Assembly: GCA_015143295.1 (NCBI GenBank)
Contig: CM026570.1
Location: 9,138,047-9,202,046 of the forward strand
Length of the DNA: 64,000 bases
From: Tetracentron sinense
Taxonomy: Eukaryota > Streptophyta > Magnoliopsida > Trochodendrales > Trochodendraceae
Direction of reading: 5' to 3'
The notes beneath the pieces were generated by a model, which saw only the letters and a list, made by a program, of their open reading frames with translations, had not been told where the DNA came from and did no database searches. Position numbers and translations under genes: made by a program. Positions within the stretch are counted from its first letter, which is position 1, and each line of letters begins with the position of its first letter. Below, piece after piece: positions 721 through 60,829 of this stretch.

Positions 721-1190
721 CCCCCTTAGGCCGTTAGATTAGGAGAATAGTGTGGTCAATGATGGCAGCCATTAGAGAATGTCCTGGCTAAGCCATTAGA
801 TACTGTTTGTAATTTTTTAAATTTTAAATTAAAAGATTATTATTTTAAACATTAACATCAATGGGGAATTCAATTTAGATTTGAATGAATAGTTGAATTG
901 CAAATTTGATTTGGACACTTCAATAGATCTCCAACAAATTCAAATTGAATTCGACGCTTGAGATTCAATTTCAAATTTATTCTATTTTTTATTCATTGCG
1001 GATTGGAGTATACTCAGATGACTCAGATCCAGCTGTTTACAGCTCTCCACCCAAACGCGTCATATCTGTCTCAGTTCTGGTCGCCGCATTCTAGCTCCGA
1101 CGAGGCAACAGATTTCTTCCCACTCCTCTCAACCGATATATGTGTCGAGAAATTCAACTAGAAATCAAATTATCAAGACTCGGGAGTGCG
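721..1190. other. AT-rich intergenic sequence
   Basis: A short imperfect duplication of a 'caattTAGATTTGAAT' motif occurs near 870-990. The 67-codon frame at 958-1161 has no recognisable domain and I do not regard it as a gene. Confidence 0.4.
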
Positions 1191-1194
1191 GTTA

Positions 1195-1445
1195 CGCCAC
1201 TAACATTACTACGTATCCCTTTTGACAACCCTTAATTATGGTTAAAGTTCACCCACTCCTAGGTTTCATCCAGCGGTTTTTAGGAGTAAAAAAATAACGA
1301 AGAAATTTAACCTTGATTAAAATTCACTTGGTTTTTTTATTTTCTAAAAACCAAGGATTGGTGGAGAACCCTATGGGTGAGTGAATCTTAACCACAGTTA
1401 AGAGATATAAATAAGGACACATGGCAGCATTTGTTGCATAATCGA
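1195..1445. repeat. foldback MITE copy
   Basis: Two arms face each other. The left arm (about 1215-1310) carries 'ttaattatggttaaag' and 'cacccactcctaggt'. The right arm (about 1350-1425) carries 'aaaaaccaaggat', 'gggtgagtgaatcttaac' and 'ccacagttaa'. They flank an AT-rich centre. This is a diverged member of the family best preserved at 33320-33700; its ends are degraded. Confidence 0.5.
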
Positions 1446-1596
1446 ACTCCCCCAATCTGGTCATAACTGGAGATGATAACAAGTCAAATATCAAAGGCCG
1501 TTTCAAGCTCTCCCAAGATTTCTGATACCTCTAATAAATGGTCGAGTCGGGTTTATCATCTTCAAGCCAGTGGCAGAGCCAGGATTCTCTTGCAAG

Positions 1597-2202
1597 CAGG
1601 GCGGAGCTAGGAATTTTTCATTGGGGGGGGGGGGGGGGGGCCAAAATACATGTATAAAAAAAAAATTTGGTTTGAGGGTATGGGATTTGGGGGTTCGGGA
1701 GAAAATTTTTTTGGGGTAATTTTTTTATTTTGAATTTTTTTTTTCTCGGTAATACCTTTGAGGTCGCCACATGTCCTATTAATACCCCTTCATTGTCGTT
1801 AAGATTCACCCACCTATCCTTGGTTTAAAAAAAATATATCAAATTTCTTTTTGAACCCTTGTTAAAAATTCACTAACTCCTAAGATTAAAATTATTTAAA
1901 TATTTTTTTCTAAAATCAAGGATAAGTAGGTGAACCATGAGATTGGGTGAATTTTAACCATAGTTAAGGGGTGTCAATAGGGACATGAGCATAAGGGGAC
2001 TCCATTGAGGGCCCACTATATATGTGACAAAAAAAATTGGGAGGGCCACTACATCATATAGGACAAAAAAATTGGGGGGCCAAGTATACTAAATTTTTTT
2101 TTTTAAATTGAGGGGCCCACTAGTCATACTAGTACAATAGGGATTTACAAAAAATTTGGGGGGGCCATGGCCCCCCCCCCCCCCCCCCTGGCTCCGCCCC
2201 TG
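1597..2202. mobile_element. nonautonomous hAT-type element with 8-bp TSD
   Basis: The termini are inverted (CAGGGCGGAGCTAGG at the left, ...CTCCGCCCCTG at the right) and are flanked by an exact 8-bp duplication, CTTGCAAG, at 1589-1596 and 2203-2210. An 8-bp duplication and C/T-A-G-type ends are hallmarks of hAT elements. Homopolymer runs sit just inside the ends (G-run about 1622-1640, C-run about 2171-2188) and are self-complementary. The interior (about 1745-1990) holds a nested foldback copy of the 9-bp-TSD family described elsewhere. No transposase is encoded. Confidence 0.75.
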
Positions 2203-2214
2203 CTTGCAAGGGAG

Positions 2215-2385
2215 TTAACACTTGGGGTTCGGTCGTAGTTCTCAATTTTCTTTGAGGGTCAAATTCAAAGGTCATCATGTCTATTTGTAAAGAACATATA
2301 TTTTTTTCTAAAAACTTTAGGTAGAGCTAGAGCCCCCCTCCCTCAACCTCGGTTATTCTTCCACACTATGCCCCTATTAGTATTA
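2215..2385. repeat. fragment of a dispersed repeat (family also at 15149, 40090, 51180)
   Basis: The order of motifs ('gagggtcaaattc', a phrase like 'atgtctatttgtaaag', 'ctttaggtagagc', 'tagagccccc') reappears in reverse at about 15210-15360, in forward form near 40320-40390 and in diverged form at 51185-51300. It is a repeat of unknown class with GC-rich 'gggcggag' ends, possibly hAT-derived. Confidence 0.4.
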
Positions 2386-2394
2386 TAGTATATT

Positions 2395-2427
2395 AGCAAA
2401 ACCCCTGTGCGATGCACAGGTTGAATA
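2395..2427 (-). repeat. Helitron-like 3' terminal hairpin
   Basis: Read on the minus strand this gives CCTGTGCATCGCACAGG followed by a short AT-rich tail containing CTAAT. A GC-rich palindrome about 10 bases before a CTRR end is the usual 3' end of plant Helitrons. No matching 5' TC end was identified, so the assignment is tentative. Confidence 0.35.
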
Positions 2428-3320
2428 AATAACTGAAAATTTTAAAATATATTAAAAATTATATTTTATCACATTATAATTCAAATATAAGAAATATAAA
2501 GAGAATAAATATATGCAACCAATTTAATAAACATTAACCTACGACAAACTATAGAGAGCTGGAAAGAAAAATCAATTATTATAGATTTTTTTGAGAACCT
2601 AAAAATTTAAGTTAATTCGGAAAACAAATAGAATCTCAGTTTCAATTCTCACCAAAAGTCTCAAATATATCTCCCCACTTGATATCTCTCCCTCTTTTTA
2701 TTGCCACATGTCGGATGATGTGTTGAGCCTAAGACCATTTTTCTGGCATCCACTAGAGACAACCTGATGCCCCTTAGATATATGTTAAAATCCAGCACTT
2801 ACAATAGCAATATCATCTCCTACTAAAATAATTGAAACCTTAGGAAGTGTTGCTCCATTTCTTAATCGGCTGGACTAACTATTAACTCAAGTAGCTACAA
2901 TTTTATTGGATAAACATAATCACACTAATAGGTAAAAGAAGATATCCAACCCCAACTTATAAAGATTAGCCTAAATACATGCATATCTTTTGTAATATTG
3001 TCATAGATTTTGAATATCCAGTCACATATTTTGTACTCCTTTGTTATAAATAGAATCCAAACCAATGCAAAAGTAGGTTGAATTTACAGCAGAATTCTCA
3101 AGTCCTTATATATGTCATCAATGGGGCTTTTCAAAAAAAAAAAAATTCGGGTTAATGGAGATCCAAGGAAGTGTTGCTTCCCTATTGGCTGTATGGGTTT
3201 GATTAGAGGATGGCGGACTAATGAGGCCTCCATTCACCTTATTACCTTGCACAATCCGACACCATCCTCCAGGGTCGAGAGTGGTAGGCAAATCTTTGTA
3301 GTCGGATTCCTCCTTTAACA
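2428..3320. other. AT-rich intergenic sequence with repeat fragments
   Basis: A block at about 2670-2770 ('cttgatatctctccctc', 'tttctggcatccac') is a half copy of the foldback family seen at 41039-41512 and 51848-52030. The overlapping frames at 3112-3321 on both strands have no recognisable domain. No gene is called. Confidence 0.4.
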
Positions 3321-3477
3321 AACTCTATCTGATGTCTTGTTTCCTACACAAAGAAGAATCCAAAAATGCAGGATTTGCGTAGTGTGTTAGAGACACTGGC
3401 GATGCAAAAAAGTTACAGAAAGAGGGTGATTTATATAGGGACAAATGCCTATTAGAGTTTAAATAGCAGCATTTAAT

Positions 3478-5416
3478 ACAAAAGGAGGTGTGTGTAATGG
3501 GAGGGGTGTTCGACAGACGAAGGGCCAAAAAGGAGAGAAGAGGGAGAGACAAGTTCAAACTTCAGATGCCATTGTAGAATAGGAAAGACAAACACTTCAG
3601 ATGCCGTTGTAGAATGGAAAAGACAAAGGAGACTAAAATTCATCATTCAGTTGAGAATTCGAATAGATGCATCAATAATATTGGAAGGAGAAGAGAGCAG
3701 TGTGTCCCATTTAATTGATTTGATTGTGTTGACAATTAAGTGTGTGTATTGAAACTATAACGTACCACAATTATCTATCTAACTTTGGAAGAAGAAAGGT
3801 TTAACTCTTTATGTGGAGAGAGGAAGAGAGATAAATTGGGGCTGATTAATGAGGGGGGATTAACGTGGGCAAAGAGGGAAGAAAGAGAAAGAATGTATTT
3901 TAATTAGTGGAATTAATGGGGGGTGGGAAGAGATTAATGTGGAGGCAGTGGTTATATGGCATCTTAAGATAGATGAGTGGGGTCCACAAACCAACATTTA
4001 TTAGAGTAGACACGTGGCAAAAACCTGAAGCTAAAATTGAAGCTTTTGAAGGTATCCAAGTGAATACCAACAACTATATAGTAGTAGTAAGATATACAAA
4101 ATGAGGTGTGTGTAATGGGAAGGACGTTCGGTAGACGAAGGGCCAAAAAGGAGAGAAGAGGGAGAGATGAGTTCAGACTTCAGATGCCGTTGTAGAATGG
4201 GAAAGACAAAGACTTCAGATGTCGTTGTAGAATGGGAAAGACAAATACTTTAGATGCCGTTGTAGAATGGGAAAGACAAAGGAGACTAAAATCCATTGTT
4301 CAGTTGAGAATGTGAATAGATGCATCAATAATATTTAAAGGAGGAGAGAGCAGTATGTCCCATTTAATTGATTTGATTGTGTTGACAATTAAGTGTGTGC
4401 ATTGATAACGTATCACGTTATCTATCTCACTGTGGAAGAAGAGAGGTTTAACTCTTTATGTAGAGAGAGGAAGAGATAAATTGGGGCTGATTAATGAAGA
4501 GGGATTAACGAGGGCAAAGAGGGAAGAAAGAGAGAGAATGTATTTTAATTGGTGGAATTATTGGGGGGTGGAAAGAGATTAATGTGGAGGCAGCGCTTAT
4601 GTGGCATCTTAAGATAGATGAGTAGGGTCCACAAACCAACATTTATTAGAGTAGACACGTGGCAAAATCCTGAAGCTAAAAGTAGACAACTCCTTTTGAA
4701 GGTATCCACGTGGATACCAACAACTATATAGTATTAGTAAGATATAAGATATACAAAAGGAGTTGTGTGTAATGGGAGGGACGTTCGGCAGACGAAGGGC
4801 CAAAAAGGAGAGAAGAGGGAGAGACGAGTTCAGACTTCAGATGCCGTTGTAGAATGGGAAAGACAAAGACTTCAGATGCCGTTGTAAAATGGAAAAGACA
4901 AAGAAGACTAAAATCCATCGTTTAGTTGAGAATGTGAATAGATGTATCAATAATATTGGAAGGAGGAGAGAGCAGCGGGTCCCATTTATTTGATTTGATT
5001 GTGCTGACAATTAAGTGTGTGCATTGAAACTATAGCGTATCATTGAAACTATAACGTATCATAGTTAGCTATCTTATTTTGGAAGAAGAGAGGTTCAACT
5101 CTTTATGAGGAGAGAGGAAGAGATATAAATTGGGGCTGATTAATGAGGGGGGATTAACGTGGGCAAAGAGGAAAGAAAAAGAGAGAATGCATTTTAATTG
5201 GTGGAATTAATGGGGGGTGGGAAGAGATTAATGTGGAGGCAGTGCTTATGTGGCATCATAAGATAGATGAGTGGGGTCCACAAACCAATATTTATTAGAG
5301 TAGACACGTGGCAAAAACCTGAAGCTAAAATTGAAGCTTTTGAAGGTATCCACGTGGATACCAACAGTTATATAGTAGTACGTGGATACCAATAGTTATA
5401 TAGTAGTAGTAAGATA
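3478..5416. repeat. three-unit tandem repeat, about 617-665 bp per unit
   Basis: Three head-to-tail units begin at 3478, 4095 and 4752, each opening with 'tacaaaa(g/t)gag(g/t)tgtgtgtaatggg' and ending in 'atatagtagtagtaagata'. The units stay clearly alignable throughout, with scattered substitutions and small indels. Unit 2 is longer mainly because a 34-bp submotif ('acttcagatgccgttgtag' onward) is present three times (4178, 4212, 4246) rather than twice. Each unit carries one ACACGTGGC box (4010-4018, 4655-4663, 5304-5312). No open frame spans a unit. The third unit ends with a small duplication of 'cgtggataccaa(c/t)agtt'. Confidence 0.85.
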
Positions 5417-5601
5417 TTGTTTTTTCAAAAGTCCAAGGGGGCTTCAACCCCTGGCCCCGTGTGGCTCCGCTCTTACCTTCAACCAACATGTGGAAAAAAA
5501 TTTAAGGAAAAATCAAAATATCAAAAACAGTTTCAATATCCTTCACATCTTTTTATTTTCTTCTAATTTCTTACATGTCAACTGTAGAGATTATGTCAAG
5601 C

Positions 5602-6080
5602 AAGGCTTTAAATTTTGTTGAAAGTTTGAAAATATTTCATGAAATTTTGGTTTCGTTACCACCCCCAAATTGAAATGATTAGTATTTTAGATTTGCAAAT
5701 TTCAGCCGAAATTAGAGAATTACGGCCGAAATTTTAGAAATTTATTTTTAATAGTTCTTTAATCACTTTTTAAATAAAATTTAAAATATAGCGAAAATTT
5801 TAAAATATTCAGAAATGTTTATCGAATTGTCACTAATTTTTGATTTTTTTTTAAAAAAATCATACTTTTTATATAAATATATTAAAATTTAATGAAATAC
5901 TCTTTTGACCAAAATTTTCTGAATGTCCGGTCGAATTTTGTGAAATATCATGAAAATATTTAAATTTAGGAAAAAATGAAATATTAAATATTAAATTTTC
6001 ACTGATAAATCCAAAGTTTTCGAATTTTTTATTCAGGTTGGAAGATTAAAATTACTGATACGATTTCAAACCTAAATGTT
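5602..6080. mobile_element. diverged relative of the hAT element at 61813-62274
   Basis: The left side begins 'caaggctttaaatttt' and the right side ends 'gatttcaaacct', matching the CAAGGTTTGAAATTT inverted ends of 61813-62274. The interior is full of 'gaaattt' and 'cgaaatttt' motifs, as in that copy. No flanking target duplication can be read, so the insertion is old or incomplete. Confidence 0.4.
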
Positions 6081-6289
6081 GTGTATTTCTGCAAGAGGAA
6101 ATCTGTTGCCAACACCCTGTAAGTAGGATGGTGCTAAGAATTTTTCCATGAGGGGTTGAAATACATGTATCAAGAAAACTAATGAGTTTTGGTGTATAAG
6201 GCCGGTTTATTTTTTTTTTTCCCAATAATGGGTCCATCATGGTGATAATATTCATTAACGTTATATTTCAATAAAGATCCGGTAACATG

Positions 6290-7070
6290 TCTCTTTTGAG
6301 AGAGCCATTATATAAATGAAAGGATAATAGATATCGGACTACCCATTTAGCCATGTAGTTAAATGCCGGTCCTTATCAGTCTACACTCCTTTTTAAGACC
6401 CCTAGAGTTCATTCATCCATCAAACCTTGGTTTTAAAAAAAAATTATTAACCTTAAAAGAAATGTTAAAAGGGTCATGGACCACCATTTGGCTATCCAAT
6501 CGAATGCACGGTCTGCTAATGACAGCTCTAAATAAAATTAACTATAATTCCAAATTAAATAATTATATTTTTAATTATTTAAATTATACATATAAGAAAA
6601 TTACAATTTCTTTTAAGGGACCAAACTTCCCATGTCTAATTAAAGTTATTTTGGGAGCACTATACATACACAATAGTAAAAATATATTTTGCTAATACCA
6701 TGGGGGACCTGATTCTTTTCGCGAAGTGTTTAGTTGGACGGAACGCGTGTGCCTCTACACATGTCCTATTGGTCTTCCTTTTAACTGTGGTAAGCTTAAT
6801 CACCTAAAGTTAGTTTTTTCCTCTAAAAACCAAAGAATATTAGATGAATGAACCCTAGGGGTGAGTGAATCTTAACCACAGTTAATGGATGTTAAAAGGG
6901 ACACATGGTGGCTTGTAGAGTTTCTTTAACTATGATTAAACTTAACTAAGCTAAGGTTAATATTTTTTATTATTTTATTCTAAAAACCAAAGTTGGATGA
7001 ATGAATCCTAAGGGTGAGTGAATCTTAACAAGAGTTAGTGGGCGTTAAAAGAGGCTTGCACGGAAACAAT
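6290..7070. repeat. cluster of foldback-family fragments
   Basis: At least three partial copies of the TTAACC..GGTTAA foldback family occur (about 6360-6470, 6760-6910 and 6930-7060). The clearest signs are 'ccctaggggtgagtgaatc', 'ttaaccacagttaa' and 'gttaaaagggacacatgg' at 6850-6908. The 110-codon frame at 6363-6695 lies across them and shows no domain. Confidence 0.5.
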
Positions 7071-7155
7071 CAAATTCCCTACTATGTAATATAAAAAATT
7101 CAAGAAAAAATTGGTGTGGGTGTTTGACAAGTGTGTAGGGGGGTGGGAGGATGGC

Positions 7156-7468
7156 GGATTCTCTCTGGCCATGCCAGAAAAGTGCTCTCTGGCCTCCACA
7201 CATGAAACATCAGCTGGCTGGAGAAGTTATTTCATGGCCCCAAGATTTTGACTTCTCCGACCTTTATTTGACAAGTGGTGATAAAATGGTGAGATAAAAA
7301 CGAGGGGGGAAGTCAAAATAGGGGATAAATTAAATGACTTCTCCCTTTTTTCAGCCAGCTGGCGCTACATGTATGGAGGCCCAAGAACACTTTTCTGGCA
7401 CGGGCCAGAGAGAATCCTACATGTATGGAGGCAGAGAACACTTTTCTAGCACGGGCCAGAGAGAATCC
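7156..7468. mobile_element. foldback MITE in the OAS-TL upstream region
   Basis: The left arm 'GGATTCTCTCTGGCC..GCCAGAAAAGTG' is repeated in inverse at the right end. The right arm exists as two direct copies ('acttttct(g/a)gcacggg' at about 7390 and 7440, roughly 60 bp apart), so one arm has been duplicated. 'cagctggctggagaag' and 'cttctccc..cagccagctg' form the inner arms. The ends lack an exact target duplication. It sits about 135 bp upstream of the TATA box of the cysteine synthase gene. Confidence 0.6.
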
Positions 7469-7602
7469 GAAGCCGGCGATGGCCCCTGTCTCTAAGCATC
7501 TGTCTAGGTACACTATTGCTAGCTTTCTAAATTCTAACCGTTTCGTTTTTAAAAAAATAATAGGCCCGGGAAAGATGGAGAAACAGTCAAAACAGATTAA
7601 GC

Positions 7603-7609
7603 TATAAAT
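7603..7609 (+). promoter_or_regulatory. TATA box of the OAS-TL gene
   Basis: TATAAAT lies about 480 bp before the start codon and about 130 bp before a good 5'-leader donor site (7742). A transcription start near 7635 would give an untranslated first exon ending at 7741. A GGCCC motif at 7563-7567 precedes it. Confidence 0.5.
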
Positions 7610-7741
7610 TCAAGGCGATTCATTTCGATTCCTCCACTTCTCAATTCGCATTCGTTCGAAAGGTAGTGTTTCGCAGAGACAAAAGTTTTCTCTGTGAGAG
7701 TTGAAGATTTGTCTGAAAGTTTTGCCTCTGTCCCAGAGCTT

Positions 7742-8072
7742 GTAAGTTTATTTTGTGGATTCTATTTTAGTGCTTGCTATGGCTTCAGCTTGATTATTTC
7801 ATGAATTTGAAAAATTCAGCTCTGATTAGAAATGGGTTTCTTTGTTTGGCTTAGATTTTTGTTTTATGGATAAATGGATGTAGAAATGGTGTTTTTTGTT
7901 TTAGGTTGGTGGATAATCTTAGGTTTTGGTGAAACCCTTTTGTTCTTACTGCTTTATTCAATTAAAATTAAATGGTTTTGTTTATATTCCTTTTATTTTT
8001 ATTTTCCAGTTCATCTGAAGATTGCAAGAAGCAATTTTTTTCTGATCCTTTCTCTTCCTTATCTGATTTCAG
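7742..8072 (+). other. 5'-UTR intron of the OAS-TL gene
   Basis: The sequence 'agagctt|gtaagttt' gives a strong donor and 'ctgatttcag|taatctg' a strong acceptor 12 bases before the ATG. The T-rich intron between them matches a leader intron. The 83-codon frame at 7874-8125 lies mostly inside it and is not a gene. Confidence 0.6.
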
Positions 8073-15552: not shown

Positions 15553-16094
15553 GGTGGCGTTTGGTAACACTAATCTAAATAGGTAGAGCTAAATTGAAAA
15601 TTGTGCTTAGTTGGACTTTAGATTGTTAAGTTGAATGTTAATTGGATGTCTACATCTTTTTGAAGTAGGGGTTTTACCTCTAAAGAAAAAAGTAGAGACT
15701 TTAGATTGTTAAGTTGAAGGTTAATTGGATGCCTACATCTTTTTAAAGTAGGGGTTTTACCTCTAAAGAAAAAAGTAGATACTTTAGATTGTTAAGTTGA
15801 AGGTTAATTGGATGTCTACATCTTTTTAAAGTAGTAGTTTTACCTCTAAAGAAAAAAGTAGAGACTTTAGATTGTTAAGCTGAAGGTTAATTGGATGTCT
15901 ACATCTTTTTAAAGTAGGGGTTTTACCTCTAAAGAAAAAAGTAGCTCATAACTATTTTTTTCTTAAAAGGCATAACTCATACTTTAAAAAGATGTAGACA
16001 TCCAATTAACCTTCAACTTAACAATCTAAAGTCCAACTAAGCACAATTTTCAAATAAGCTCTACCAATTTAGATTAGTGTTACCAAACGCCACC
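15553..16094. mobile_element. Tourist-type (PIF/Harbinger) MITE with TTA duplication
   Basis: The ends GGTGGCGTTTGGTAACACT... and ...GTTACCAAACGCCACC are perfect inverses over at least 16 bp. The inverted similarity runs on for about 100 bp ('agattgttaagttgaa', 'ttaattggatgtctacatc'). TTA flanks both sides (15550-15552, 16095-16097), as expected for PIF/Harbinger MITEs. The left arm has expanded into an 83-bp tandem array. Confidence 0.85.
15614..15945. repeat. 83-bp tandem array, four copies, inside the Tourist MITE
   Basis: Copies start at 15614, 15697, 15780 and 15863, exactly 83 bases apart. Each reads 'actttagattgttaag', then 'ttaattggatgtctacatc', then 'ttttacctctaaagaaaaaa'. Only a few substitutions separate the copies, so the expansion is recent or homogenised. 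Confidence 0.9.
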
Positions 16095-16777: not shown

Positions 16778-17230
16778 ATGACCAGCAAAGCTGAAGGTGA
16801 TGGTGATGGTAACGAACAAATCAATGAGCAGGCAGTCGCCAACCTATATGGCTCCATGAGGGCTGAAATGAACCAACTTTACTCGAAAATTACAGAATTA
16901 GAGATGGAAATGAGTGAGCATTCCTTGGTGATTGGAACCATACAGCTACTCGATCCCTCCAGGCGATGCTTCCGCATGATTGGAGGCATGCTGGTGGAGA
17001 GAACAATCAAAGAGGTCCTGCCAGCAGTTCAGCGTAACAAGGAGGGTCTTGAGGAGGTGATTTCTCGACTGAACGAGGCATTGGAAAAGAAGAAAAATGA
17101 AATTGCCGAGCTTGAAGCAAAATACAAAATTAGAATAAGAAAATCTGATGGTGAGCAGAAGGATGATGGCAGCCAGAAGGAAGGTTCTGCTCAGGGAGTT
17201 CTTGTGGGTCCTGCTAGTGCAAAAGAATGA
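16778..17230 (+). CDS. PFD2: prefoldin subunit 2
   Basis: The product is a subunit of the hexameric prefoldin (GimC) co-chaperone, which holds nascent actin and tubulin and passes them to the cytosolic chaperonin CCT. The single coding exon encodes 150 residues, close to the usual length of plant PFD2. Two amphipathic coiled-coil helices (about 15-55 and 85-122) flank the conserved beta-hairpin segment LLDPSRRCFRMIGGMLVERT (57-76), diagnostic of beta-class subunit 2. The tail after residue 122 is acidic, glycine-rich and disordered, as in plant homologues. The ATG at 16778 follows a 3' splice site at 16773, so the coding exon is probably the second exon. There are no internal stops or frameshifts. 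Confidence 0.95.
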   Translation: MTSKAEGDGDGNEQINEQAVANLYGSMRAEMNQLYSKITELEMEMSEHSLVIGTIQLLDPSRRCFRMIGGMLVERTIKEVLPAVQRNKEGLEEVISRLNEALEKKKNEIAELEAKYKIRIRKSDGEQKDDGSQKEGSAQGVLVGPASAKE

Positions 17231-25345: not shown

Positions 25346-25929
25346 ATCCCCATTTTAACCCCAGTTAGAGACCCTAACCCTGGGTTAACACACCCCTTAG
25401 CCTCTAGGCTTCACCCTTAGTCTACCGGACTTCTCCTTGGCCTATCAGGCTCATACTTTACACATTGACCAACCCCGGTCAAGCAAAATCCTAATCACCG
25501 GATTAGGTCAATTAGCCACCTTTGGTGCACACACACACCCCCTAGCCTTAGCACGGGCTCACGTGCTAGACCTATGCTCGGTCTGATCTCACCCCTATGT
25601 GAGTACGTAGGCAACCCAACCCGGGTTCGATCCTAGTTAGTTTTTCTTTTTTCCGTTTAGAATTAACTTAAACATTTTGGCATTTGATTAACTTTGAACT
25701 TTGATTTGGCTTAAATCTAGTAAGTAGGGAACCACTATAAGCGGAAGTGTCGGGGTGCCTAACCCCTTCCCCAAACTTAACCGAACCTCTTACCCTGGTC
25801 CCTGATCGGAGACTAAGACCTTATCCAACATCCCGGAGGACTTATCCATTCTGAATGAATAGGTGGCGACTCTAAACACTTAACAAACCCCTTGAGATTA
25901 ATTTCAGGGAATGAAATCCCGCGCTAACA

Positions 25930-44111: not shown

Positions 44112-44759
44112 TTACACAAAATGCCGTGAATCCGTACACCGGCCGGAGACTTCAGAATCCGGGCGAGCTTCGTCAGTCGAGGACATGAGACAAACGAGAA
44201 GATCGGCAAAAGCTCCAATGATGAACTTGTGGGTGTGTTTGGGGTTGAGCGTAAGATAGCACAAAAGCAACTCGTGCAAGTAATCCCAATCAGCTCTAAC
44301 GTCTAACAAGTCTCTTACCTCGACCATCTCTTGCATTGATCGCCGGAAATCCATGTACGGATCTGGGGAGAAGGTCGGAATAGGAACGCCTCCGCCGATA
44401 AGTTTGTCAGATTCCGGCGGACATTCCGGGGATTCGATAATGGAGTTGGAGCGGCCGGGGGAGGAGAAGAAGAAGCGTTGGGAAGCGAAGACGGTGGCGA
44501 AGTCGGGGGTGGTGGTTTCGGCGCCGTAGTCGGAGTCGGAGGAGGAGACGTCGTCGGTGGAGGGGGTGGGAGATTTGGAGGTGGAGTCGGAGGTGAGATC
44601 GTAGAGGGAGTTGAAGTTCTTGATGAGGATTGATGAGGTGGTGGTGGTTGGGATGTGTGATGGACGGCTGTGATCTTTTTTGGAAGGGGATTGACTTGTG
44701 GGTGGCCATTTGAGCTTTGAGAAACACAGATGGAGGTTCTTCCCAAGAGTAGTGGGCAT
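44112..44759 (-). CDS. OVATE family transcription repressor, OFP12/OFP16 type
   Basis: The product is a plant-specific repressor that binds TALE homeodomain and other regulators and shapes organ growth. One intronless frame encodes 215 residues, the usual size for this subgroup. It starts MPTTLGKNLHLCFSKLKWPP, the conserved N terminus of the class. Next come a Ser/Thr/Pro-rich linker (20-90), the motif FASQRFFFSSPGRSNSI (91-107), and the OVATE domain at 131-191 (SPDPYMDFRRSMQEMVEVRD, YLHELLLCYLTLN, HTHKFIIGAFADLLVCL). OFP genes usually lack introns, which fits. Overlapping frames at 44315-44746 and 44407-44727 are shadows. The 5' leader on the minus strand is CT-rich. I see nothing broken; the exact paralogue number cannot be fixed from the sequence alone. 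Confidence 0.95.
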   Translation of the reverse strand: MPTTLGKNLHLCFSKLKWPPTSQSPSKKDHSRPSHIPTTTTSSILIKNFNSLYDLTSDSTSKSPTPSTDDVSSSDSDYGAETTTPDFATVFASQRFFFSSPGRSNSIIESPECPPESDKLIGGGVPIPTFSPDPYMDFRRSMQEMVEVRDLLDVRADWDYLHELLLCYLTLNPKHTHKFIIGAFADLLVCLMSSTDEARPDSEVSGRCTDSRHFV

Positions 44760-48041: not shown

Positions 48042-49139
48042 GAGCATTCTTAACAGCCACACCAAATCTTACTCATCAAAATAATCAAAAATCGCTTTTT
48101 CCTAGACTATCCATTTATTTAAAACACTTCTAGCTCATCAAAAATTAACCAAAACTCACATTATTTTATTATTTATGTAAGATCACAATAGTACAAATCA
48201 AGAAAGAAACCTTTATTTTATTATTTAGTGAATACTTTGCACTCACCTAATCGAAATGGTTATTTTACAGAGATTGATGGAGACCTTTTAGAGCATTCCT
48301 AGCAACCTCACCAAAATGACTTTTTCAGTTTTGTGAGCCAAATAGTTAAAAAGTATTAAATAATGCTCGCAGCTACCTCACCAATTTGACGTTTTCGGTT
48401 TGGTGAGTATAGAGTATTCACCAACTTTGGTGAGTCACTATACACTCACCAAAGTTAAATATCTATCTTTCCTTCCTTTGTGGCCCACACAAATAAAATA
48501 AAGGTTTCTTTCTCCCTTTATTTTTTAATCGAGGAAGTGACACAAATAATAAAATAATGAGAGTTTTGACTATTTTGGTGAGGTTGTTGGGAGTGTTTTA
48601 AAAAAGTGGCTCACCAACATGACTTTTTGTAAGTTTTGACTATTTTGGTGAGTAAAATTTGGTAAGGAGCATTCCTAGCAGCCTCGCTAAAATGACTTTT
48701 TGGTCATTTTGGTGAGCCATATAACTAAAAAGTGCTAAATTACACTCCCAGTAGCCTCACCAATCTGATGTTTTCGGTTTGATGAGTGTACAGTACTCAC
48801 CAACTTTGGTGAGTCACTTATACACACCAAAGTTAAAAATCTCTATTTCCCTCATTCTTTGTGGGCCCACACAAATAAAATAATAGTTTCTCTCTCCTTT
48901 TTTTTTTAATTGTGAAAGTGACACAAATGATAAAATAATGAGAGTTTTAGTTATTTTGGTGAGATTGTTGGGAGTGTTTTAAAAAAGTGGCTCACCAACA
49001 TGACTTTTTGTGAGTTTTGACTATTTTGATGAGTAAAATTTGATGAGGTTATTAGGAATGCTCTGAAAGCATTTTTTAGTACTTTAGCTCACCAAAATAA
49101 CTTTTTGGGTTATTTTGGTGAGGCTGCTAGGAATGCTCT
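48042..49139. repeat. nested cluster of GAGCATTCCTAGCA-ended MITEs
   Basis: The terminus 'GAGCATTCCTAGCA(A/G)CCTC' occurs forward near 48042 (diverged), 48291 and 48667 and in reverse ending near 49063 and 49139. TA precedes the 48291 end and follows the 49139 end. The interior is duplicated with a 379-base offset ('gttttcggttt' at 48391 and 48770; 'gtggctcaccaacatgac' twice). The layout suggests one MITE inserted into or recombined with another of its kind, then tandem duplication. Confidence 0.7.
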
Positions 49140-54790: not shown

Positions 54791-55486
54791 TGGCAGTCTC
54801 AAAATTTAAATTTTTTTTCAAAGTCTCGTGGTAATAATTGTATACCCATTTCAATAGGTTAAAAAGGTAAAATTTCAAACAAGAGTATGTTATGATTTGC
54901 ACCGGATCTCAAAGTAATAGGGAGATGTAGCGACGTTTGTTGCTACCACCATGACTCGTGAGACTTTGGAAGTCTGAGATTGGGGCTAACATTTCTCTTT
55001 GTTTTAGTTTTATTATGGGAAAATAGTGAGAGTAGGGATTAAGAGAGTAGGCTTAGCATTCTTAAAAATGTTGTTTCCCTGTATTAAAAATATAGGGGTT
55101 TTTCCCAGATTGCCCTCTAGTATGGGGTTCTTCCCTAAATACCCACGTTTTGAAAACCCTTCTCTAAATGTCCTCATACACTTGTGCATCCATTCACACA
55201 TGCGAATTTTTCCCATTTTATCCAAATCATTTGAGGTCCCCACCACATTTCTGACGAGTTCTTCGTTCCCACCTCATTTCCGGCAAGAGTTCTTCATTCC
55301 CACCCCATTTCTGGTGAGAGTTTTCAATTCCAAGAAGAAGAAGATACGTACGTGGATGAGATGAATGAAACTCACCCACTCCCCTCATCTTCCAAATACC
55401 CCTCTATTACCATCTATATTGGTTTTGAAAGAAGAAAAAAGATTAAAAAATCGCCAAAATCTGAGTTTCGCAAAGTTTTTAGCGCG

Positions 55487-57064
55487 TAGGGTCGATACAA
55501 TGCATCGACCTCATGCATTTTATGCATCGATCCCGTACAAAATGCATCGACCATGTACAAAATGCACTAGGTTGATATAATGTATCGACCCCCTGCATTT
55601 TATGCATCGACCCCATACAAAATGCATCGACCCCGTAAAAAATACACGCATGTATCAACCTAATGCATTTCATGCATCGACCTTGTGCATTTTATACATT
55701 GACCCCGTACAAAATGCATCAACTTTGTACAAAATGCACTAGGTTGATTCATTGTATCAACCTAGGTCGATACAATGCATCGACCCCGTGCATTTTATGC
55801 ATCAATCCCGTACAAAATGCATCGACCCCGTAAAAAATGCACGAATGTATCAACCTAGAGCATTTCATGCATCGACCCCGTGCATTTTATGCATCGACCC
55901 TGTACAAAATGCATCGACCCCGTAAAAAATGCACGAATGTATCAACCTAGTGCATTTCATGCATTGACCTTATACATTTTATGCATCAACCCCGTACAAA
56001 ATGTATCGACCACGTACAAAATGCACTAGGTTGATACAACCTAGTGCATTTCATGTATCAACCTAGTACATTTTATGCATCAACCCTTTACAAAATGTAT
56101 CAACTCCATACAAAATGCACATGTATCGATATAGTATATTTATGCATCAACCCTGTACCAAATGTATCGACTCCGTGCAAAATACACTAGGTTGATACAT
56201 TGTATCAACCTAGTGCATTTCATGTATCGACCTAGTTCATTTATACATCAACCCCGTACAAAATGTATAGACCCCGTGCAAAATGCACTAGGTTGATACA
56301 TTGTATGAACCTAGTGCATTTCATGTATTGACCTACTGCATTTATGTATCAACTCTGTACAAAATGTATCGACCCCATTGCAAAATGCACTAGGTTGATA
56401 CATTGTATCAACCTAGTGCATTTCATGTATCGACCTAGTGCATTTTATGCATCAACCCCGTATAAAATGCACTAGGTTGATACAAAATGCACGAGGTCGA
56501 TACATTTTGTACGGGGTTGATGCATAAATGAACTAAGTTGATACATGAACTGCATTAAGTTGATACAATGTATCAACCTGGTGAATTTTGCACGAGATCG
56601 ATACATTTTGTACGAGGTTGATTCATGAAATGCACTAGGTCGATATATGAAATGTACTAGGTTGATACATTGTATCAACTTAGTTCATTTTGTACGGGGT
56701 CGATATATCTTGTACGAGGTTGATTCATAAATGCACTAGGTCGATACATGAAATATACTAGGTTGATACAATGTATCAATCTAATGTATTTTGCACGATA
56801 CATTTTGTACGGGGTTGATGCATAAATGCACTAGGTCGATACATGAAATGCAGGTTAATACAATGTATCAACCTAGTGCATTTTGCACGGGGTCGATATA
56901 TTTTGTACGGGGTTGATGCATAAATGCATTAGGTCGATACATGAAATGCACTAGGTTGATACATTGTATCAACCTAGTGCATTTTTTACGGGGTCGATAC
57001 ATTTTGTACGGGGTTGATGCATAAAATGCACTAGGTTGATTTATTATATCAACCTAGTACATTT
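55487..57064. repeat. 20-22 bp palindromic satellite array, left part
   Basis: Units such as TGCATCGACCCCGTACAAAA and TGCACTAGGTTGATACAATG alternate, often pairing head to head (GTTGATACA..TGTATCAAC). Up to about 56480 most 'cgaccccgt' units read forward; after it they read in reverse (acggggtcga). Many small frames here encode repeating Met-His-Arg-Pro/Thr-Lys-Cys peptides, which merely reflect the repeat. Confidence 0.85.
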
Positions 57065-59686
57065 TGTGAACACCCCATTTTTACACCCCTAAAATTCCTT
57101 TTTCTAATTTAATTTAATTAATTATTTTTATATATTTCTTTAATTTATTTTTCACATTATTTGTTTGGTCTCAAGAGAGAGAAAGATTGAGAGAGTTGGG
57201 GAGGGGTTCAAGTCCAAGTTCAAGACCAAGACCAAACCCCATCCAATTCCTAAAAACCAAACCCCAAATTCAATCCAGGGTCTTCTAAAGCCCAAAAGCC
57301 CATACCCATGTCTATAAGATCAAGAGATAGGGTTTAAAATCCCAAACCTCATTCGGTTGAGAACAGCAGCCCCCACTCTCTCCTTCTCTTCTCTCTCCCG
57401 ATCTCAGTCCAACGGCGAGGACAGCGCCCCCACCGTCTCAGCAACAACCTTCTCTCCCTCTGCTTCTCTTTATCGCCAGCGGCACCACCTTTGATGAGGG
57501 CCTCCACCATCGTGCATCTCCATCTTCTAACATCAGATGCCATCCAATTTCGGCCAGACCAGAAGCTCCGGCGAACTAAGTTAGCATCAAATCTCTTCAA
57601 TCAGCAGCGTTGTTGGCGTCTAGCATCCCTTCTCTTCTCAAATTCGGCAGTTGCTCCGGTTATCTTCTCAGGCCAAGATTCACCTCATCCAGTACCTCCA
57701 ACCAACAGCTTTTCTCCGGCGAGCTCGATCAGTGCTGGTCACCTGATTACGCCCCATTCTCTCCTAATCTCACTCCACCAAATCCAATCTACTTCTATAT
57801 CCTTCACCTCCGCCAACGACAGTGCCTCCGGTCAACTTCCCTCTCTCCCTTCTCCATCAAATCAGTTGCTCCATCTCCCATGAATCCGACTAGAAACATC
57901 CCAGCTCCATCATCACCGACAACAACTTCAAGCTATCTAGTTCAGTCCAGTTCACCGGAGCCGCCATCCCATCACCAGTCCAGTGTGAGATCAGTTCCAA
58001 TCACCCTCTCCGGCGAGATTCAACATCAGTTCCAGCCATTAGCTCATCTTGTTTCTCAGATTTGGTGCATCAACCACCAGCAGCCCATCGGATCCCTTGC
58101 CTCTTCCTCTTCTCGGATCAACGGAGCAGCCACCATTATTGCCGATCTACCATCAACCATCGCAGGTGTGATCCATTCATGTCTATTTAATTTCTTTGCA
58201 CAGTAACTTGGTATGGTTTGTTTTCTGGAATCCGACAATGGTCGGGGTCCCCTTTATTTATCTTTGTTGTGGGATCATTGGTTAAAAAGGGATCAGGCTT
58301 GGTTTAGTTGCTTTGAGATCTGAGGCAATAAGGGATTTCCTATTGAAAACTATGATCAGGTTATGATTTAATGGGTTTTGAACAGAAATTTTTTGTCTCA
58401 ATTTGTTTTGATTTCTAAAAAAAAAAAAAAAAATAAATTGAAAACATGATCATTTGTTTCTTTTTTTAAAAAAAAAAACCAGTGATGGAGTTTTTGTTGT
58501 AACATTGTTATAGATCTGAAATCTTACTTAGAGCATAACTAGTTTGAGGCTGGGGATAACCATTGAACAAGTGTTGGCCATAACATCATTTTCTTTTCAT
58601 TTTATTTCTTCTAAACTGGTCGTAAGTTAGCATGTCATACCAATTTTAAATAAATCCTTCATTCGCACCAGATCCAATTTCTCTTATAGTGTTATTGTGC
58701 CGAAGTTGGTTGGCTAATTTCATTAGTCCATTGGCCCTGGCATAGTAATTCTAAATAGACCTCAACCTGATCTCTGGATAACTTTTAACCTCGATAGCAT
58801 ATGATAATTTAATTAATTTTATTTAGTTCATTCTTGAAATCTTTATAATCTTTAGGCCTAGCAAGCCTGATTCTTAATTTGGTCGCCCTCTTGTAATTTG
58901 TTGGTAATTTTATTCTTGTATGTGTGTGCAATCATAGGATTAGGCCGTAGCTTATTTTTTTCTTTTTGCCTACCTTGGGCGCTTAGGTGATTTCTTACCC
59001 TAAACAACTTGCCTACCCCGTTAGTTAAAAAATACAAAAAAAATCAAAAAATGCAAAACAACAAAAACATTCAAAAAACTCACAAAATTCAAAAAAGACC
59101 TACCCTAATAAATGAACGCCCCCTAGCGCTCCCCCATGAGCACCTAGCTGCGTAACCAAATCCCGGAGTGAGATTCATAAATCTCAACTCCGCTTCCCCC
59201 AACTCAAACACGAGTTGGAAGTGACCATACTCCGAAACGAGTATAAAAACAGTCACGGACCCCCGAACTACTATGAGGGTCTGATTCCGACTAATCGGAT
59301 AAGTAGGCAGCCCAAAACCAGGGTTCGACCCCAACCAAAAATAAAATTTTTACACCCCATATTGATTTGTGTTTGATTAGCAAAATTAATAATTATTTAG
59401 GAAATTTTAAGTGATTTTAAATGTTTAGCTTGGACCTAATGAGTAGGTTACCATCATTGGATGGAGGTCCTGGGGTGCCTAACCCCTTCCCCAGGACTTA
59501 AAGGGATCTCTTACCTAGACTACTCTGGACCGTAGACCCCCTTATTTTGGATTATCTCGAGATCCTACTTCCCCTAAGTAGGTGGCGACTCTTAGAATAA
59601 ATTTAGCGTTATTCCTCTACTCTCGGACCTTATCTCGACACTTAGAGTTGAGAGGGGAGGAAAGGCGGTAAATTTTGGTGTTTACA
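57065..59686 (+). mobile_element. solo LTR, 2.6 kb, with 5-bp TSD CATTT
   Basis: It starts TGTGAACACCCC and ends TTGGTGTTTACA (TG...CA). Exact CATTT lies on each side (57060-57064, 59687-59691). The last 350 bp have the modules 'gtaggcagcccaaaacc', 'gggttcgacccc', 'ggggtgcctaaccccttccc' and 'aggtggcgactctt', shared with 22967-25929 and reminiscent of Tat/Ogre Ty3/gypsy LTRs. A promoter-like, CT-rich stretch with Pro/Ser-rich frames lies at 57350-58200; these frames overlap on both strands and are not convincing genes. No gag or pol, so this is a recombined single LTR. Confidence 0.8.
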
Positions 59687-59691
59687 CATTT

Positions 59692-60115
59692 TGTACGGGG
59701 TCGATACATTTTGTACTGGGTTAATGCATAAAATGTACTAGGTTGATACATGAAATGCACTAGGTTGATACAATGTATCAACCAAGTGCATTTTGTACGT
59801 GGTCGATACATTTTGTACGGGGTGATGTATAAAATTCACGGGGTCGATGCATGAAATGTTCGTGCATTTTTTACTGGGTCGATGCATTTTGTACGGGGTC
59901 GATGCATTGTATCGACCAAGGTTGATACAATGTATCGACCTTGTGCATTTTTTACGGGGTCGATGCATGGAATGCACTAGGTTGATACATGTGTGCATTT
60001 TTTGCGGGGTCGATGCATTGTATCAACCTAGTGCATTTTGTACGTAGTCGATGCATTTTGTACTAGGTTGATGCATAAAATGCACGAAGTCGATGCATTG
60101 TATTGACTCTGCGTG
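59692..60115. repeat. 20-22 bp palindromic satellite array, right part
   Basis: The array resumes directly after the LTR in reverse orientation ('acggggtcgatgcatt', 'taggttgatacaatg'). It is the displaced end of the 55487-57064 array. Confidence 0.85.
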
Positions 60116-60829
60116 CACAAAACTTCAGGAAACTCAGATTTTTGAGACTTTTTCATATTTTCTTATTCTTTCAAAACCAGTATAGATGTTAATGGAGGGA
60201 TATTTGGAAGATGAGGAGAGTGGGTGAGCTTCATTCATCTCATCCACGTACGTATTTTCTTCTTCTTCTTCTTCAAATGAAGAACTCTCGCCGGAAATGG
60301 GGTGGGAACGAAAATCTCTCATCCACGAACCTAAATCCCTCTTCTTCTTCTTCTTCTTTTTCTTTCAAAATCAGTGGAGGGGTATTTAAGACTTTACATA
60401 AATACTGAATTATGAAAAATGGATCATAAGGGCATTTAGAGAAGGGTTTTCAAAACCTGGATATTTAGACAAGAACCTCATATTAGAAGGGCAATCTGGG
60501 AAAAACCTCAAAAATATGCTTCAACCTGCAGGGACGAAAATCCCAAGAAATGGGGTTGCATTTATACGCGGGTTGATCCGCCCGTAATGGATAGACATGG
60601 GATCTTCTCCAGTTGCAACTAGTGAAGAGACCACTAGCATTCAACTAGGAAGCGCCACACATTTGATTGCATGCCTTTTAAGGTGTGTGTACAAGAACCA
60701 AAGATTTGGTCCAGGGTATGTGTTTTGGTTGGTGTGCACACATCTTGAAAGGCGTGTACAAGGGTATGTGGCGGTTGATTGCATTGGCGGTCTCCTCTCC
60801 AGTTGCAATCAGAGAGAGTTGGGATCTCA

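Follow-up and report, generated by a model that had tools for sequence, protein, structure and literature searches.

How does a transposable element come to possess two long arms that match each other in inverted orientation, both filled with the same short satellite? The question is raised by an element at positions 55095-60509 of a stretch of 64,000 nucleotides (C20:9138047-9202046; the window, to which coordinates without a locus or contig name refer) from a host genome of 1.16 Gb in 1479 contigs. The origin of the long matching arms of foldback elements has been discussed as a proposal, for example in the available text on Galileo (PMC3573991). Our reading of the present locus, to which we give a probability of roughly three in four, is that the element is a non-autonomous MULE of a large family, the foldback form of which arose from a single inverted copying of a satellite arm onto the other end and then moved as a unit.

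Anatomy of the window element

The limits of the element are set by the family end GGGGTTTTTCCCAGATTGCCC and by 9-bp flanks, and computations on it were run over 55097-60507 or 55097-60508. The flanks form a target-site duplication, AAAAATATA on the left (55086-55094) and AAAAATATG on the right (60510-60518), with eight of nine positions in agreement. The left outer arm (TIR; 55095-55482, plus strand), which starts with GGGGTTTTTCCCAGATTGCCC, is followed by the left satellite array (55483-56484, plus strand), by an orientation switch (56468-56488) close to the centre of the LTR-free element, by a right array in two parts (56485-57064, made predominantly of reverse monomers, and 59692-60097, both on the minus strand) and by the right outer arm (TIR; 60098-60509, minus strand). 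The right array is divided by a later insertion into this arm, a solo LTR of 2622 bp (57065-59686; TG...CA, TGTGAACACC...GGTGTTTACA) flanked by a 5-bp duplication, CATTT, at 57060-57064 and 59687-59691. The sequence-only reading had rightly recognised an LTR here, and only its right limit needs amending, as the end proposed, 59691, takes in the CATTT duplication. No second copy of the solo LTR was found within the window; a 92-bp piece at 25705-25794 resembles it at 74%. No ORF of at least 150 aa overlaps the element outside the LTR.

With the LTR set aside, the window element is a single inverted repeat. The outer arms measure about 390-410 bp each, and the remainder of the LTR-free element, which is about 2.79 kb long, is satellite. 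The flanking arms previously described are present: the pair 55286-55479 and 60119-60319 matches at 84-85%, the pair 55097-55177 and 60426-60507 at 89%. Between the left members of the two pairs, about 100 bp (55178-55285) match poorly. After removal of the LTR and one CATTT duplication, the alignment of the left half with the reversed right half scored 1576.5, with 1085 of 1236 ungapped columns identical (87.8%) and 313 gap columns, as against 37.5-85.5 for three single-base shuffles and 283.5 for the left half with the forward right half. The inverted diagonal expected once the LTR is removed is continuous, yet interrupted by gaps, many of which correspond to about one or two satellite units. 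The predicted RNA fold of the LTR-free element reaches -1713 kcal/mol, compared with -674 to -710 for eight dinucleotide shuffles; given so extreme a predicted hairpin, a transcript could feed small-RNA silencing.

The satellite was mapped by a 17-nt degenerate core, TGYATCRACCYNGTRCA, which marks 92 monomers in the element at up to 4 mismatches and 91 at up to 3, mostly spaced by 18, 20 or 22 bp (elsewhere in the window the core has 4 matches at up to 3 mismatches). Left of 56485 the monomers are predominantly forward (39 forward, 8 reverse), while on the right 9 are forward and 36 reverse, the flip lying near 56470-56485, close to the centre of the LTR-free element, where the sequence-only reading had placed it. 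An inverted monomer and its neighbour form a palindromic dyad, CTAGGTTGATACAWTGTATCAACCTAG, and the nested palindromes proposed earlier are real, as both the monomer map and the self-comparison attest. For the analysis of blocks, the arrays of 18 of the 21 one-armed copies introduced below were split at every inverted monomer; that each block has one inverted monomer thus follows from the way of cutting, and the result lies in the regular spacing. Of the 150 blocks obtained, 69 consist of 4 monomers and 46 of 5, the other 35 having different numbers, with 80 bp and 101 bp as the commonest lengths (39 blocks each), so that inverted monomers recur mostly every 4 monomers (80 bp) or every 5 (101 bp).

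The two monomers of the dyad diverge less than the other monomers, both in 4-monomer blocks (0.093 and 0.116 vs 0.142-0.143) and in 5-monomer blocks (0.045 and 0.056 vs 0.064-0.097), an observation compatible with constraint and also with homogenisation. The length of the satellite varies within the element family, from 3 to 80 monomers among one-armed copies, and neutral slippage together with unequal exchange is enough to account for array growth. A tentative and rather doubtful suggestion is that selection may have shaped the array as a landing platform with many sites, used by the transposase or by a host protein, and that arm copying may have been favoured because it left a platform at both ends; selection would then have produced foldback transposons repeatedly, as outcomes of arm copying and not as accidents.

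A family of one-armed and two-armed copies

The exact 19-bp TIR end occurs 341 times in the genome (168 + 173), and its reversed control not once. Among the first 100 ends listed, 23 of the 24 adjacent pairs less than 8 kb apart have a spacing of 1108-1767 bp; the ends of the remaining pair are 7322 bp apart and on the same strand. The loci read comprise 20 chosen from TIR matches, 12 distinct ones among the 30 top satellite places and one extra locus. TIRs lie on both sides of the satellite at all 12 top satellite loci, 8 of which were absent from a list of TIR matches, and likewise at the extra locus (for the window copy, the right side was taken from self-comparison). Furthermore, 9-bp target duplications are exact in 15 of 28 copies and agree at 8 or more positions in 21 of 28, figures reached by 2 and 28, respectively, of 756 mismatched flank pairs; exact duplications of 8 bp are found in 20 of the 28 copies and of 10 bp in 2. 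With these duplications, the repeated exact ends and the TIRs on both sides, the earlier claim that the window element is one mobile unit is supported.

The 9-bp duplications point to the Mutator superfamily, and long TIRs are present too (outer repeats of roughly 240-400 bp, with imperfect matching between the two ends). The hAT and P superfamilies, the latter including Galileo, make target duplications of 7 to 8 bp. They were considered and rejected, the 15 of 28 exact 9-bp duplications exceeding the expected chance extension of the 8-bp ones (20 of 28), by judgement and not by computation. A search for the MULE domain (PF10551) scored 150 places of 1282 candidates, and among those scored no transposase tied to the family was found; the 48 such places on C1-C6 lie at least 38.5 kb from the 100 listed exact ends, a list that reaches C6:33.5 Mb and holds mismatch-free ends only.

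The sequence-only reading had also proposed a genome search for a link between the satellite and the flanking arm sequence, and such a link is seen in the loci read. The 59 fetched loci, many of them overlapping, contain 62 arrays of 4 or more monomers; a TIR match lies within 500 bp of 61 of these, and the exception, in locus L028, belongs to a copy that an insertion has broken in two, of which it forms the far half. A genome-wide search for the exact dyad, a motif typical of the 101-bp form, gave 44 occurrences in 15 loci. Of these, 42, at 13 loci, fall in elements with TIRs on both sides; the others are at C6:519 kb (518-521 kb) and C18:37.70 Mb (37.700-37.703 Mb), outside the set read. This linkage covers the loci read, lower-ranked satellite loci falling mostly outside the set, and in the loci read no array was seen outside mobile elements. 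The TIR end and the satellite had no match in collections of virus and prokaryote contigs. That the satellite is an independent genomic repeat which sits in the element by chance could draw on the 2 of 15 dyad loci outside the read set and on a cross-listing in which only 13 of 40 satellite loci have a TIR match nearby, among the TIR matches listed; the cross-listing is uninformative, because loci with TIRs known from sequence scored negative. Since the 61 of 62 arrays close to a TIR (the other being in the split copy) include loci that the cross-listing missed, this explanation is hardly credible.

The split copy of L028 (about 930-8050 of that locus) is one-armed and is interrupted by an insertion of about 7.1 kb with edges TTCAAAATATCGGTATCGG and its near inverse; it is read as split because the array, 7 kb from the TIR, runs into the family middle (96% over 254 bp). 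The insertion contains a tandem array with steps of about 105 bp at 5605-7067. The copy in another locus, L019 (6612-8819), has an additional TIR-like stretch in its interior (7484-7582) and an array in two blocks, possibly as a result of nesting or rearrangement.

Both ends were read in 27 copies, of which 21 are one-armed and 6 two-armed (five insertions), a proportion that is not a genome frequency, because the copies were picked by similarity to the window element. Left out of this count were L009 and L028, whose second end lies beyond the stretch read, and L013, which has 3 monomers and is included among the 28 copies used for duplications. One-armed copies, more frequent than any other form in the set read, carry the satellite at one TIR, then a unique middle (about 270-280 bp in most) and finally a satellite-free other end, 446-592 bp being without satellite at that side. 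The inverted-alignment score per base was 0.38-0.64 in the six two-armed copies vs 0.21-0.28 in the nine one-armed copies tested. Two of the two-armed copies, L010 (C515:4000-13100) and L011 (C2:44863267-44872000), have matching flanks and are versions of one insertion, counted twice among the 6 two-armed and among the 28 duplication copies; they are identical at 2353 of 2396 positions outside gaps and differ by indels of 20, 73, 39, 22 and 2 bp. The pair may consist of alleles, haplotigs or duplicates, and is probably a haplotig or a duplication. In L059 (605-2527), an array of 80 monomers has an internal inverted segment; with no second satellite arm, this copy was counted as one-armed.

How the second arm may have arisen

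The tree built from 47 arms is divided by a branch of support 1.0. On one side of this branch lie a single arm from every one of the 6 two-armed copies (L-type, the left arm in the window), the incomplete copy L009 and 11 satellite-free ends; on its other side stand the other arms of the two-armed copies (R-type, the right arm in the window) and the satellite arms of the one-armed copies. Support is weak at most inner nodes, and no well-supported clade unites the L-type arms alone; the supported split partly mirrors the chimera described next, because it also contains satellite-free ends. Comparison in 80-bp segments shows that at positions 50-180 the L-type arms resemble satellite-free ends (median 98-130 vs 26-59; 6/6), while from 250 on they resemble satellite arms (85-139 vs 18-31; 6/6). 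The scores swap sides at about 150-280 in 6/6 L-type arms and in 0/6 R-type arms, the latter being closer to satellite arms throughout (6/6). The change-over lies within or close to a homologous stretch of about 45 bp common to both kinds of end, placed approximately, by eye from the alignment, at 55254-55300 (plus strand) in the window. Every two-armed copy has, therefore, one chimeric arm, with an outer part like a satellite-free end and an inner part and satellite like a satellite arm.

The sequence-only reading had held that the satellite grew inside the TIRs, and part of this stands: arrays do grow and shrink within the element, from 3 to 80 monomers and by the indels that separate the C515 and C2 copies. 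Growth in both TIRs does not stand, the satellite being one-sided in one-armed copies and one arm chimeric in two-armed ones. An independent expansion in the two TIRs would agree with the changes of array length in both arms, but the arms have similar starting units beside the same inner sequence, and in 6/6 two-armed copies one of them is a chimera joined at roughly the same point, which makes such a course very improbable.

A second line of evidence comes from the centre of the element. Three two-armed copies, on C6, C1131 and C23, retain part of the middle of the one-armed form, about 70 bp in C6 and more in the others, and in all three the remnant stops at the identical base, ATTAATCATACAT, after which an inverted satellite unit follows. 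A genome search for the junction pattern, with up to one mismatch allowed, gave 3 matches, all in these copies, against 0 for its control. The junction alignment took in 20 of the 21 one-armed copies, and in these 20 the middle continues beyond the junction point of the two-armed copies. If the foldback form were ancestral and the one-armed copies had lost the satellite of one end, the inner sequence and satellite start common to the arms of both forms would be accounted for; a middle truncated at one common junction in three two-armed copies, and running past it in the 20 aligned one-armed copies with a polarity unlike the product of a simple deletion, argues against this order, which we regard as improbable. 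As the three two-armed copies have this junction in common, and the genome contains it just 3 times, the foldback form probably arose once and then spread.

The copies in the window and on C515/C2 are without a middle; the place of the window copy in this lineage rests on its chimeric arm, because it has kept no remnant of the middle. Duplications flank the foldback form at three insertions (8/9 in the window, 9/9 in C515/C2, 8/9 in C6); the C1131 and C23 copies have no recognisable target duplication and their right ends are uncertain. The comparison of the switch region between copies was only partly informative.

The sequence of events that we favour would begin with a single founding event, in which the satellite arm of a one-armed element was copied, inverted, onto its other end. 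Synthesis, started in the satellite-free end, would have jumped to the arm at the opposite side somewhere in the approximately 45 bp of common TIR sequence; it would then have run through the satellite into the middle, copying part of it, and have joined a satellite unit again at a 6-nt match, ATACAT. This motif is common in the satellite and the match at the junction could be due to chance. The polarity and truncation of the middle are those to be expected of a one-armed element that gained, at its satellite-free end, an inverted duplicate of its own inner arm, array and part of the middle, and a template switch during copying fits this. The product would then have moved as a unit, presumably by means of a transposase encoded elsewhere, and array lengths would have changed afterwards; the copies in the window and on C515/C2 would later have lost the centre, and the solo LTR would be what is left of a retrotransposon that entered the window copy.

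The same final order of blocks would result from recombination between two elements, either inverted neighbours or partners in an ectopic exchange at the common TIR stretch, followed by a deletion through which the middle came to abut the other array. Many copies are present, the junction zone is homologous and the R arm of the window copy has closer relatives in some other copies than in the L arm of that element, all of which would suit such an exchange; it requires, on the other hand, two elements and a second event, and an intermediate with two full elements is absent among the copies read. Recombination of this kind is a possible source of the second arm, albeit a rather unlikely one.

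Known foldback systems and the surroundings of the element

The element shows traits of the FB class, namely long TIRs consisting largely of short tandem repeats, a repeat number that differs between copies and, by prediction, hairpin folding of the whole strand. The sequence-only reading had started from the premise that the arms of most foldback elements are unique or simple and had seen in the repeat-filled arms a distinguishing mark. The premise does not stand up, as FB elements have composite TIRs with tandem repeats (PMC3169594), and the mark does not distinguish, since the available texts describe tandem-repeat arms in FB, Galileo, Tetris and Tm1 (PMC3169594, PMC3573991, PMC4079207). 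Tm1, a Mutator/Foldback family of root-knot nematodes, is similar in its 9-bp duplications and in TIRs made mainly of short tandem repeats (13-15 bp), variable in number within and between copies; it differs in its animal host, in the putative transposase of some members and in that the account at hand speaks of tandem repeats, with no regularly inverted monomer (PMC3169594).

Galileo, of the P superfamily in Drosophila, likewise has long TIRs with internal repeats, in which binding sites for the transposase domain are reported (PMC3573991, PMC3688188). Its authors propose that copying of TIR1 at the site of TIR2 brings in neighbouring sequence and lengthens the TIR, an idea in line with the one favoured here; the element belongs to another superfamily, however, its tandem repeats are of about 210 bp, and a shared founding junction is not described in the portion of that work available (PMC3573991). 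Tetris, from Drosophila virilis, is also an apparently non-autonomous foldback with tandem repeats in its TIRs, but its repeats are of about 220 bp and, according to the accessible text, also form satellite-like arrays of kilobases (PMC4079207), whereas no free arrays were seen in the loci read here. Among plant Mutator-like elements, MuTAnT and FARE (the latter as cited in the same work) have a foldback structure too, with modular TIRs or long palindromic repeats, a higher-order satellite not being described in the available part of the report (PMC4486113). Plant MULEs with multiple TIRs resemble the present family in their duplicated TIRs, for which slippage and recombination were weighed as causes; the text at hand concerns duplication of TIRs and not satellites, and leaves the origin open (PMC3310237). 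Among the titles and abstracts brought up by searches of open-licence papers, none described a plant MULE whose arms hold a higher-order palindromic satellite.

Tandem-repeat arms themselves being already known, the significance of the family lies in the unusually clear intermediates of foldback formation preserved in one genome: the order of events can be read because one-armed copies survive in it beside two-armed ones, some with a truncated centre and a common junction, others lacking the centre. Moreover, a short satellite with regularly inverted units, confined in the loci read to one transposon family, can be used for the study of array growth and of a possible role of the inverted monomers.

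Other features of the window include two host genes, one for a prefoldin subunit (16778-17230, plus strand; PF01920) and one for an Ovate-family repressor (44112-44759, minus strand; PF04844). The Ovate family is plant-specific, and gene content such as this suggests a plant host. Two further tandem repeats are present, an 83-bp unit in four copies at 15614-15944 (95% matches) and a 381-bp unit in two copies at 48291-49042 (86% matches).
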